Shown here: positions 30,699 through 58,162 of the stretch, one piece after another
Position numbering within the stretch: position 1 is the stretch's first letter
How the letters are laid out: every line of letters starts with the position of its first letter
Source of the DNA: Bradyrhizobium guangdongense
GTDB lineage: Bacteria; Pseudomonadota; Alphaproteobacteria; Rhizobiales; Xanthobacteraceae
NCBI RefSeq assembly: GCF_004114975.1
Contig: NZ_CP030051.1
Span: 3,224,001 to 3,288,000 of the forward strand
DNA: 64,000 nucleotides
Direction: 5' to 3'
The notes under the pieces: generated by a model
What the model saw: the letters and a program-made list of their open reading frames with translations, nothing else
Databases searched by the model: none
What the model was told of the DNA's origin: nothing
Position numbers and translations under genes: made by a program

Positions 30699-31442
30699 AT
30701 GACAGTTGTTCAGGACACCATCAGGCCGAAGGCCCGATCGCGGGACTGGAAGGCGATCGTCGTCCTGATCCTGCTCGTCCCGGTGCTGTGGTCGCCGGTG
30801 ATCCTGTTTCGCTTCGTGCTGTTTCAGCCGTTCAACATTCCGTCCAACTCGATGGCCCCGACGCTGATGGTCGGCGACTACGTTTTCGCCGCCAAATATG
30901 CCTACGGCTACGGCCGCTACTCGTTTCCGTTCGCGCCGTCGTTTATCTCGGGGCGCTTCCGCGCCGCCGACCCCAATTATGGCGACGTCGTCGTATTCCG
31001 GGCGCCGAAGGACAGTTCGACCGATTATGTGAAGCGCGTCGTCGGGCTGCCCGGCGATCGCATCCAGATGCGGCAGGGGCAGCTCTTTCTCAACGAGATC
31101 CCGGTAACGCGCATCGCCCTGAAGGAGGTTCCCGCCGGCTCGACTTGCGGCAGCGAGTTCGGTGGAAGGGTCAGGCGCTGGCGCGAGACGATGCCGAACG
31201 GGGCGAGCTACGTCACCTACGACTGCACCGACAACGGCTTTCTCGACAACACCAGCGTCTACACCGTGCCGCCGGGCCACTTCTTCGCGCTCGGCGACAA
31301 CAGAGACAACTCGACCGACAGCCGTATGGCAACGATGGGCTTCATTCCCATGGACAACCTCGTCGGCAAGGTGACGCGGATCTTCTGGTCGCTGGATTCC
31401 GGAGGCGGACTGCGTCCGGGCCGGATGGGGAAGGTGGGGTGA
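30699..31442 (+). CDS. lepB: Signal peptidase I
   Basis: 247 aa from the ATG at 30699 (GGGCAGGGCAGG upstream). One N-terminal membrane helix (residues about 18-42) is followed by the catalytic serine box NIPSNSMAPTL (Ser about 51), the lysine box DYVKRVVGLPGD (Lys about 112), and the C-terminal GHFFALGDNRDNSTDSR, all diagnostic. It cleaves signal peptides of exported proteins at the outer face of the inner membrane. Many alphaproteobacteria encode more than one copy, so this may be the main or an accessory enzyme. A palindromic repeat and a GIY-YIG gene follow. Confidence 0.93.
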   Translation: MTVVQDTIRPKARSRDWKAIVVLILLVPVLWSPVILFRFVLFQPFNIPSNSMAPTLMVGDYVFAAKYAYGYGRYSFPFAPSFISGRFRAADPNYGDVVVFRAPKDSSTDYVKRVVGLPGDRIQMRQGQLFLNEIPVTRIALKEVPAGSTCGSEFGGRVRRWRETMPNGASYVTYDCTDNGFLDNTSVYTVPPGHFFALGDNRDNSTDSRMATMGFIPMDNLVGKVTRIFWSLDSGGGLRPGRMGKVG

Positions 31443-31462
31443 GCGGCCGGTCTCTCCCGTCT

Positions 31463-31502
31463 CGTCATTCCGGGGCGCGCGAAGCGCGAGCCCGGAATCC
31501 AT
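31463..31502. repeat. Family A palindromic repeat, left copy beside GIY-YIG gene
   Basis: 40 bp running from CGTCATTCCGGGG to CCCGGAATCCAT; the two ends pair (ATTCCGGG with CCCGGAAT) and the middle GCGCGC-GAA-GCGCG pairs too. It is identical over all 40 bp to the left half of the element at 51939. Its CCAT end points toward the nuclease gene and lies 12 bp past that gene's ancestral stop codon. Confidence 0.85.
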
Positions 31503-31514
31503 AGGTCTGCAAAC

Positions 31515-31795
31515 TCAGCTCGCAATCTGCGGATACAGGTCGGCCCACTGAGCTCTTCAATGAGTCTGATCTTCCATTCCCTCCGCCACTTCTTCAATTC
31601 CTTCTCGCGTTCGATTGCAGTTACGGGATGGTCGTAGATCTCAAACCAGACCAGCTTGTTAACGGAGTATCGCTTGCTGAATCCAGCGACGACCTTGCTC
31701 TTATGCTCGTACGTGCGCCTGACAATATTGTTCTTCACGCCGAGATAGAGCGTGCCGTATTTCTTGCTGGCGAGCAGGTAGACGTAATAGGCCAT
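31515..31795 (-). CDS. Small GIY-YIG nuclease, frameshifted near its C-terminus
   Basis: The ATG at 31795 starts a GIY-YIG domain: MAYYVYLLASKKYGTLYLGV (Y-V-Y and Y-L-G motifs), NIVRRTYEHKS with the catalytic Arg (about 26), and AIEREKELKKWRREWKIRLIEEL with the metal-binding Glu (about 64-66). The core is intact. After residue 82 (about 31549) the usual family ending NPxWxDLY is found in another frame (WADLYPQIAS, stop at 31515-31517), as if about 7 bp had been lost. The uncorrected frame runs to 31259 through the repeat and antisense to lepB. Length to the corrected stop is normal for this YhbQ-like group. The gene is tightly flanked by inverted palindromic repeats. Confidence 0.75.
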
Positions 31796-31809
31796 GAGCA
31801 AGCCGTGGA

Positions 31810-31851
31810 ATGGATTCCGGGCTCGGCGCTTTGCGCCGCCCCGGAATGACG
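31810..31851. repeat. Family A palindromic repeat, right copy beside GIY-YIG gene
   Basis: 42 bp running from ATGGATTCCGGG to CCCCGGAATGACG, in opposite orientation to the copy at 31463. The ends pair as in the other copies and the centre GGCGC-TTT-GCGCC forms a hairpin. Its ATGG end faces the nuclease gene, 14 bp upstream of the start codon. It has the same length and outer sequence as the right half of the element at 51939-52045. Confidence 0.85.
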
Positions 31852-31889
31852 GAACACACGATCGTGCCACCTTTGCGTGTATCCATGAA

Positions 31890-31923
31890 CAAACAAAAAA
31901 CCCCGGCATCGCTGCCGGGGTTT
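31890..31923 (-). terminator. Rho-independent terminator of groSL
   Basis: CCCCGGCA (31901-31908) and TGCCGGGG (31913-31920) enclose a TCGC loop. Read on the minus strand it ends in TTTTTTGTTTG, a textbook terminator about 80 bp past the groL stop codon. The other side carries only TTT, so it mainly serves the minus strand. Confidence 0.85.
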
Positions 31924-31939
31924 CGTATTTGTTGAGCGT

Positions 31940-31987
31940 GATCCCGGATCTGCGGTGCACCGCTTTGCGCTGCACCGCGTCCGGGAC
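31940..31987. repeat. Palindromic repeat, family E, downstream of groL
   Basis: GATCCCGGA at the left pairs with TCCGGGAC at the right; inside, GCGGTGCA pairs with TGCACCGC. It is a 48 bp hairpin in the 3' region of the groSL transcript, 12 bp after the groL stop. It looks like another dispersed family, but only this copy is seen here. Confidence 0.55.
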
Positions 31988-35445: not shown

Positions 35446-36696
35446 CTACGTCAGCACCCCCACCACCGCTCCCATCAAGCACGTCGTCAGCGTCCCCGAT
35501 ACGATCGACTTCAGCCCCAGCGCGTTGATCTCCTCGCGCCGCTCCGGCGCCATCACGCCGAGGCCGCCGATCATGATGCCCAGACTGGCGAAATTGGCAA
35601 AGCCGCACATCGCATAAAGCATGATCAGCCGCGAGCGCGCATCGAGCGTATCGGGTGGTAGCTTCGAGAAATCGACATAGGCGACGAGCTCGTTGAGCAC
35701 GGTTTTCGTGCCCATCAGGCTCCCGGCGGTCACCGCCTGGTCCCAAGGCAGTCCCATCAGCCAGCACACCGGCGCCATCACGAGGCCCAGCAGCCGCTGC
35801 AGCGAGATCGCCGCGCCGCCGATGTTCGGCATCAGGCCGAGGATGGCGTTGACGAGATAGACCAGCGCCACCAGCACCAGGAGCATCGCGACGATGTTGA
35901 GCAGCAGCTCAAGCCCCGCGCTCGTGCCTTTCACGATCGCATCCATGGTGCCGGCGACGTGCATCTCCGGATCTTCCAGCGCGCCGCCGGTGCGCTTGTC
36001 CGAGGTTTCGGGCACCATGATCAGGCTGACGAGGATCGCGGCCGGTGCGCCCAGCACCGAGGCGATGACGAAATGCGCGGCCGCGTCGGGAATCAGCGGC
36101 GCAAGCAGCGTCGCATAGAGCACCAGCACGGTACCGGCGATACCGGCCATGCCGCCGGTCATCACCAGAAACAATTCGCTGCGCGACATCTGTGAGAGAT
36201 AAGGTCGCACGAACAGCGGCGCCTCCACCATGCCGAGGAAAATGTTCGCTGCGGTCGAGAGCCCGACCGCGCCGCCGACGCCAAGCGTTCGCTCGAGCAG
36301 CCAGGCCATGCCGCGCACGACCGGCGGCAGCACGCGCCAATAGAACAAGAGTGTCGTCAGCACGCTCATGACCAGCACGATCGGCAGCGCCTGGAAAGCC
36401 AGGATGAAATCGGCGCCCGGCACTTTCAGCTCGAAGGGCAGGGCGCCGCCGCCGACATAGCCGAACACGAAGGACGAGCCGGCGCGCGAGGCCGCCGAGA
36501 TGGCGCCGACCGCGTCGTTGATGGCGCCGAAGCCATGCGCGACCAGGGGCACCTTCAGCAGCACGATCGCGGTGACGAAGGTGACGACAAGGCCGATCAG
36601 CGCCTGTCGAAGCGAGACCGCGCGGCGATTCTCCGCGAGTGCGAAGGCGATCAGCAGCAATGCGAAAACGCCGAGTGTCGATTGCAGCCGCAGCAT
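35446..36696 (-). CDS. Concentrative nucleoside transporter, NupC/CNT family
   Basis: 416 aa from the ATG at 36696; an open frame extends upstream but lacks a ribosome site and overlaps the divergent MFS promoter. Family motifs are clear: SSFVFGYVGGG, the gate helix VVRGMAWLLERTLGVGGAVGLSTAANIFLGMVEAPLFVRPYL, SELFLVMTGGMAGIAGTVLVLY, and GTKTVLNELVAY. It imports nucleosides with sodium or protons. The ending YAMCGFANFASLGIMIGGL is typical. No catabolic nucleoside genes are adjacent; it is divergent from an MFS gene. Confidence 0.93.
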   Translation of the reverse strand: MLRLQSTLGVFALLLIAFALAENRRAVSLRQALIGLVVTFVTAIVLLKVPLVAHGFGAINDAVGAISAASRAGSSFVFGYVGGGALPFELKVPGADFILAFQALPIVLVMSVLTTLLFYWRVLPPVVRGMAWLLERTLGVGGAVGLSTAANIFLGMVEAPLFVRPYLSQMSRSELFLVMTGGMAGIAGTVLVLYATLLAPLIPDAAAHFVIASVLGAPAAILVSLIMVPETSDKRTGGALEDPEMHVAGTMDAIVKGTSAGLELLLNIVAMLLVLVALVYLVNAILGLMPNIGGAAISLQRLLGLVMAPVCWLMGLPWDQAVTAGSLMGTKTVLNELVAYVDFSKLPPDTLDARSRLIMLYAMCGFANFASLGIMIGGLGVMAPERREEINALGLKSIVSGTLTTCLMGAVVGVLT

Positions 36697-51938: not shown

Positions 51939-52045
51939 CGTCATTCCGGGGCGCGCGAAGCGCGAGCCCGGAATCCATTTGTCCACACCACTTGTGCCGA
52001 TGAATGGATTCCGGGCTTGCGCCAAGAGGGCGCCCCGGAATGACG
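51939..52045. repeat. Composite palindromic element, family A, copy at 51.9 kb
   Basis: Left half 51939-51978 (identical to the repeat at 31463-31502), a 25 bp spacer, and an inverted right half 52004-52045. The inner ends CCAT and ATGG face each other exactly as around the GIY-YIG gene, so it looks like the GIY-YIG unit with its gene removed. It lies between the amidase and enoyl-CoA hydratase genes on the same strand. Confidence 0.88.
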
Positions 52046-58035: not shown

Positions 58036-58162
58036 CGTCATGCCGGGGCGCGCGTCAGCGCGAGCTACGGTGCGCAATTGCGCACCGGAGAATCCATCGG
58101 GCCGCAACACAAGAGGTGAAATGGATTCCGGGCTCGCGCCAAGGGGCGCGCCCCGGAATGTC
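58036..58162. repeat. Composite palindromic element, family A, copy at 58.0 kb
   Basis: Left half 58036-58097, 23 bp spacer, inverted right half 58121-58162. Compared with the other copies the left half contains an extra 20-odd bp with the perfect palindrome GGTGCGCAATTGCGCACC (58069-58086). The inner CCAT and ATGG ends again face each other. It lies in the gap between the dppC-type and ATPase genes. Confidence 0.85.

Follow-up and report, generated by a model that had tools for sequence, protein, structure and literature searches.

The stretch of DNA analysed here, referred to as the window, comprises 64,000 nucleotides (G000:C1:3224001-3288000) inside the 8.4-Mb genome of Bradyrhizobium guangdongense and contains a small gene for a GIY-YIG nuclease that lies between two oppositely oriented palindromic repeats (Table 1). 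A sequence-only reading had pointed out this arrangement, and its measurements hold: 14 bp (31796-31809) separate the start codon (ATG, 31793-31795) from the upstream repeat, 12 bp (31503-31514) lie between the frame-corrected stop codon (31515-31517) and the downstream repeat, the inner ends CCAT and ATGG of the two repeats face inward, and the repeat at 31463-31502 is identical over 40 bp to positions 51939-51978, the left arm of a gene-less pair that is present as it had been described. The region 58036-58162, taken in the same reading for a third gene-less relative, does contain a pair, but its left arm harbors a nested palindrome (GGTGCGCAATTGCGCACC), and at the right end GTC stands in place of the expected GACG; this pair was missed by our strict scan. 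The uncorrected open reading frame of the nuclease gene (31259-31975) spans both flanking repeats. Its catalytic part is open and the conserved C-terminal tail WADLYPQIAS is found in another frame, because of which the window's own copy, frameshifted near its end, may be impaired.

Table 1. Nuclease gene and repeats in the window
Feature	Position	Strand
CGTC REP, 3' of the nuclease gene, CCAT tail facing the gene	31463..31502	+
GIY-YIG nuclease gene, frame-corrected extent, frame change near the 3' end	31515..31795	-
Catalytic GIY-YIG domain, 81 residues, frame open, pLDDT 94.5	31553..31795	-
CGTC REP, 5' of the nuclease gene, tail facing the gene (ATGG on the + strand)	31810..31851	-
Gene-less REP dimer of the type found at the nuclease gene; arms 51939-51978 and 52004-52045	51939..52045	
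Gene-less REP dimer; arms 58036-58097 (left, containing a nested palindrome) and 58121-58162 (right, degenerate at its end)	58036..58162	

The repeats in the window carry the marks of CGTC REPs, namely a CGTC tag, the stem ATTCCGGG, a CCA tail and an arrangement in head-out pairs. In the accessible part of the defining survey (Di Nocera et al. 2013; PMC3733652), CGTC REPs are described by a CGTC or TGTC tag, a stem starting from AT, an unpaired CCA tail and dimers of opposite orientation, and the repeats studied here share with this definition the YGTC tag, a stem of 8-9 bp, the CCA tail and the opposite-orientation dimers. Unlike in the definition, stems starting from GT, GC or AC and long loops also occur. 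According to the same part of the survey, CGTC REPs are found mostly in Alphaproteobacteria, with Bradyrhizobium among the genera named, and the Neisseria family CGTC-1 is equivalent to dRS3 (PMC3733652). They are reported there to show no association with transposase genes and apparently to have no dedicated transposase, for which early loss or borrowed enzymes are offered as explanations; that part of the text makes no mention of a nuclease lying between them (PMC3733652). The repeats analysed here are associated with a nuclease gene, whose product may or may not act as a transposase.

A strict REP model (YGTC, 8-bp stem, loop, matching stem, CCA-like tail) gave five matches in the window, four of them REPs and one a chance match at 36545, while ten shuffled windows yielded no match in nine cases and one in the tenth. 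The source genome holds 26 exact copies of a long REP pattern and 94 copies of the 14-base head of the window type, the reversed control being zero for both, and at least 11 copies of this head are present in each of the 80 Bradyrhizobium genomes searched (80/80). From the 26 exact REP places together with the window, 13 head-out pairs emerged; 12 have spacers of 18-27 bp, and the thirteenth is the nuclease unit with 309 bp. A small nested palindrome (core TGCGCAATTGCGCA) resides inside one CGTC REP arm at several sites and in several species, as if one repeat had entered another; apart from the window (58036-58097), it was seen at loci L345-L348, L350, L394, L395, L399, L403, L408, L300 and L301.

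The window nuclease scores 48.4 bits against Pfam PF01541 (cut-off 22.6), and GIY-YIG is the only Pfam family above its cut-off. It belongs to the GIY-YIG superfamily by its catalytic residues Y6, Y17, R27 and E64, which are invariant in 33 aligned rows, as are H31 and much of a KKWRREWK-like helix. With about 80 residues the protein is a minimal single domain, modeled with a pLDDT of 94.5; neither the Pfam search nor the 81-residue model revealed an added DNA-binding domain (NUMOD). The nearest solved folds are UPF0213 and, weakly, SLX1, at 22-29% identity and with weak scores apart from that for 1zg2. Among 257 distinct copies, 215 are open and carry a W.DL tail motif, 15 have a stop within the first 80 codons, and 27, the window copy included, have no in-frame tail. 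The low median dN/dS of 0.04-0.11 in five Bradyrhizobium types (6-51 pairs each), together with the predominance of open copies, indicates that the protein is under purifying selection. The source genome encodes a second small GIY-YIG protein of another subfamily, without adjoining REPs, and a third match lies inside a long open reading frame. The second gene (L001 1501-1716, G000:C1:108450-108665) directly follows a tRNA-like stretch and contains an in-frame TAG; its relatives in the genus are likewise without flanking REPs.

The sequence-only reading had held that the link would be a matter of chance if most members of the nuclease subfamily lacked flanking repeats, and among the sampled members the reverse is the case. 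We used a model-free test that asks for the longest string common to both 200-bp flanks, with a length of at least 11 and windows displaced by 400 bp as the control. Such a string was present at 95 of 107 loci encoding homologues of the window protein (not dereplicated; displaced windows 6/103), at 37 of 40 loci of other Bradyrhizobium members (displaced 5/39), at 11 of 14 loci from a plasmid collection and, with one locus per genome, at 70 of 87 loci from Pseudomonadota (displaced 7/83). When at least 13 bases were demanded, the Pseudomonadota set still gave 68 loci as opposed to a single displaced one; at 17 of the 87 loci no common 11-mer was found. A control GIY-YIG subfamily reached 1/30. 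The Pseudomonadota set stems from a profile search (E ≤1e-15) that detected the nuclease in 101 of 398 genomes and 63 of 212 genera. Ninety of the 101 positive genomes were sampled, three of which were lost from the shared-string test on account of their flanks and seven from the displaced control; the set counts one locus per genome and not per independent site, and it includes Bradyrhizobium.

The strict scan led to the same picture. At 101 distinct loci of window-protein homologues, a REP lay within 150 bp of the gene in 84 cases, on both sides in 60 and with tails inward in 50 (an earlier version of the scan gave 86, 63 and 51), and at distances of more than 300 bp there were 14 REPs in 232.6 kb. 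In Bradyrhizobium, a different subfamily of small GIY-YIG proteins had a REP within 150 bp at none of 30 loci. Lower-identity Bradyrhizobium members were positive in 14 of 20 cases, and the remaining six possess a different inverted palindrome that the scan misses. Among 89 Pseudomonadota loci (one per genome, one of the 90 having been lost because the gene is cut by a contig end), 59 had a strict REP within 200 bp, 41 of them on both sides, compared with 24 strict REPs in 95.5 kb beyond 400 bp. Smaller sets gave 6/14 (plasmid collection), 10/20 and 12/20. When 24 loci, mostly misses of the strict scan, were read by eye, palindromes with other stem starts became apparent beside many of them. 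In a chromosome-sized Neisseria gonorrhoeae record listed among plasmids, the nuclease is situated among CGTCATTCCCGC repeats, the nearest strict repeats being 109 bp upstream and 45 bp downstream. Bracketing by palindromes is a property of the nuclease family far beyond chance, which is ruled out as an explanation by the displaced windows and the control subfamily.

We also asked where similarity between units ends. In pairs of non-syntenic loci, alignments leaving the gene ended within 5 bp of the outer REP edge in 163 of 189 cases on the left and 100 of 137 on the right, compared with at most 13 when the edges were shifted by 15-50 bp; the pairs are not independent and involve 48 loci on the left side. 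They cross phyla (Thermodesulfobacteriota, Nitrospirota, Cyanobacteriota and Pseudomonadota). An unrestricted version of the test (604 non-syntenic pairs, 12-bp limit) failed its control, with 179/810 ends on the left and 112/860 on the right as opposed to 244 and 222 once the edges had been moved outward by 60 bp, since a large share of the alignments break off within the gene. Two copies in one genome (L188 and L300), whose proteins are 97.5% alike, are 88% alike between the upstream REP and the first REP downstream; the REP pair that follows matches in inverted form, and no match is reported past it. A pyrimidine precedes the tag in 84% of 194 outer ends. Target duplications were absent: a repeat of at least 2 bp occurred in 8.2% of 97 units with tails-in outer REPs and in 7.7% after shuffling. 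As there is no target-site duplication at the outer ends, a DDE transposon or MITE was set aside. The REP-nuclease-REP unit is shown by these alignments to be discrete and to end at the REP tags.

Within Bradyrhizobium, 69 of 70 loci could be assigned to one of eight REP types; the remaining locus (L055) is unlabelled though one REP adjoins it. On the nuclease tree, the eight types, whose labels were defined after the flanks had been inspected, require seven changes, which is the minimum, compared with a mean of 39.3 after shuffling. Permutation of labels within genomes yielded a mean of 483 and a maximum of 591 concordant pairs in 2000 rounds, against 607 observed. The type pairing rests on the tree because single-linkage clustering merged several nuclease subfamilies. 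One genome (G473) illustrates the diversity: four of its five fetched loci have four different stem types, and one has no strict REP. Two or more loci were sampled in 13 Bradyrhizobium genomes, and in 11 of these no type occurs twice, sampling being incomplete. Within a type, a single ancestral site is common to most members (A 25/26, A2 9/9, B 9/10, C 7/8, H 8/10, F 2/2), type E being found at three sites, so that descent explains part of the type match and the nuclease gene itself seldom moves within the genus. In one REP type CTCGAG replaces the CCA tail, and this type has its own nuclease clade (L406, L408, L409; L295, L298, L301, L307). Co-variation of repeat and nuclease sequence, put forward as a check in the sequence-only reading, is present within Bradyrhizobium, in part through descent, but did not reach significance outside it. 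There, a Mantel test of protein against stem similarity, in which 36 of the 100 loci were excluded for want of a strict REP, gave a rho of 0.10 (P 0.065 with free permutation), and within families protein similarity was no significant predictor of stem similarity (P 0.55); mean stem identity rose from 0.61 to 0.71, 0.78 and 0.93 only above 60% protein identity.

Sister genomes present alternative states at the same sites, which indicates that REPs turn over at shared spots. At the site of the window's nuclease gene, between the signal peptidase gene (lepB) and groEL, one readable genome is empty (L374), one has a gene-less dimer (L367), one has the nuclease in the orientation seen in the window (L364), and five have it flipped (L370, L372, L375, L382, L391); inversion between the REPs or separate insertion may account for the opposite orientations. 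Four loci (L365, L373, L377, L383) were not readable across this position. In L376 and L378, GTAG-type palindromes are found there, at a shared insertion hot spot of GTAG-type and CGTC REPs. Near-perfect solo palindromes (CGTC..GACG in L366, L369 and L371; ending in GAGG in L379) look like deletion footprints, such as would be left behind if a dimer recombined at its repeated half-stems and lost what lies between them. At the 58036 site, 3 of 20 sister genomes are empty, 10 have the window's type, 4 the ATTGCGAG type and 3 the type with the CTCGAG tail, and at the 51939 site most of 30 loci have either of two REP families, with neither complete in L357 and L360. Empty sites, for which the sequence-only reading had suggested a search in sister strains, exist at two of these positions, in species that are about 8-18% diverged in the flanks and with insertion points that are not base-precise.

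Across 398 Pseudomonadota genomes, a generic REP pattern occurred with a median of 12 matches in the 101 nuclease-positive genomes and of 1 in the 297 negative ones. At least 10 REPs were present in 52/101 and 25/297 genomes, respectively (odds ratio 11.5, Fisher P 8e-19), and permutation within families gave P = 0.0002; 49 of the 101 positive genomes had fewer than 10 matches to the pattern, by which some but not all REP types are captured. At a looser threshold, no intact family member and a single broken one (G159) were recognized on inspection in the 25 nuclease-negative, REP-rich genomes, 13 of whose assemblies are less than 95% complete. Equal abundance of the repeats without the nuclease, named beforehand as an outcome that would make the link fortuitous, is hence contradicted across Pseudomonadota, although within the genus two genomes without a match to the window protein contain 66 and 112 REP heads. 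Apparently, the repeats can outlast the nuclease gene, and persistence without RAYT is likewise reported for REPINs in E. coli (PMC8049555).

In our opinion, the REP-nuclease-REP unit probably represents CGTC REPs in their gene-bearing state (a 'CGTC REPtron'), with the gene-less dimers as non-autonomous relatives and the nuclease as the cognate enzyme of the flanking REP type. Support comes from bracketing in at least four phyla, from the REP-tag-bounded unit and from a distinct REP type for each nuclease subfamily in one genus, and further from co-occurrence across genomes, purifying selection and the alternative site states in sister species. Judged from these comparisons of sequences, the nuclease is a strong candidate for the missing enzyme that spreads CGTC REPs. 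It would recognize a folded palindrome (hairpin or cruciform) near the YGTC foot and cut it. GIY-YIG enzymes hydrolyse DNA and do not rejoin it, and for this reason copying would fall to the replication or repair machinery of the host, and no target duplication would arise. Spread is probably rare today, because the enzyme is mostly present once per type and vertically inherited. More tentatively, the units may constitute a class of bacterial mobile element with a minimal GIY-YIG hydrolase as the sole protein, in which the nuclease would cut folded CGTC palindromes for host replication or repair to copy. The nuclease would then be the driver that CGTC REPs have been missing, in four or more phyla, and it would have diversified jointly with the repeat type within individual genomes.

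Other explanations have to be weighed against this one. The gene could be a passenger of the homing type, free-standing, that invades REP dimers by cutting gene-less ones and being copied in by repair from a gene-bearing one, the REPs themselves spreading by other means. The position of the gene between two dimer arms, the resemblance of gene-less dimers to uninvaded sites and the crossing of phyla by the unit would all suit such a passenger, yet we regard it as unlikely: the ratio of roughly one gene per type to tens of dimers without a gene (11 of 13 genomes, incompletely sampled, without a repeated type; 94 REP heads in the source genome) favors a trans-acting enzyme over homing, the 81-residue domain is devoid of an extra DNA-binding domain, and homing alone does not explain why REPs are more numerous where the gene is present. 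A domesticated, structure-specific nuclease that trims REP cruciforms or hairpins, its gene remaining beside REPs as a relic of former mobility with no spreading now, would account for purifying selection, vertical inheritance at one site, the weak fold likeness to SLX1 and the solo palindromes as possible processing products. We nevertheless think such a caretaker improbable, as lone REPs greatly outnumber the gene and are retained in genomes that lack it, and as the presence of a discrete unit with REP boundaries at sites unrelated to each other implies that movement has taken place at some point. It is hardly credible that the nuclease genes just happen to be located at intergenic hot spots of REP accumulation. 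REPs are indeed intergenic, and several families of them occupy the same spots, but strict REPs are absent within 150 bp at all 30 loci of the other subfamily of small GIY-YIG proteins in the genus, REPs thin out beyond 150-300 bp from the gene, types pair with the nuclease tree, and the units end at REP edges.

The REPtron reading agrees with what is known of RAYT in that an enzyme gene lies between inverted REPs and gene-less dimers occur elsewhere, with the tag YGTC instead of GTAG. RAYT and GTAG REPs are described, in the accessible parts of the publications, as mostly comprising one gene and many gene-less dimers, vertically inherited, with repeats commoner where the gene is present (PMC8049555), and RAYT as a tyrosine (HUH) transposase that acts by cutting REP in single-stranded form and depends on the GTAG motif (PMC8266576). 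The enzyme studied here is not a tyrosine transposase but a GIY-YIG nuclease, and the best reading is that the CGTC system, by analogy, works like a REPtron but is not RAYT, the enzyme class being different. The REP/RAYT-like link proposed in the sequence-only reading is accordingly backed by the architecture, by mostly one gene per type, by long vertical inheritance and by repeats outlasting the gene, though the gene itself seldom moves; the underlying observation is confirmed and reaches wider than its author guessed. With GIY-YIG homing endonucleases, for which the selfish spread of a nuclease gene is known from the accessible part of a further paper (PMC1564403), our nuclease has the catalytic domain in common, but it is without intron, intein or further domain, and its flanks are the repeats themselves. 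UPF0213 and SLX1 are the nearest solved folds, but the small GIY-YIG control subfamily is devoid of nearby strict REPs.

A literature search outside subscription papers and preprints found no paper linking this nuclease with REPs. A nuclease bracketed by CGTC REPs in many genera is a concrete, testable candidate for the dedicated enzyme that CGTC REPs appeared to be without in the 2013 survey. If this is true, the REP/RAYT arrangement would exist with two unrelated enzymes, and a role would be suggested for proteins annotated only as 'GIY-YIG nuclease family protein'. A family member is also encoded on plasmid p1 of Planktothrix agardhii (L200), where it is flanked by a gene for a restriction enzyme of type IIL and by drmA, a DISARM gene, amid repeated TGTCATTCTGAG stretches.
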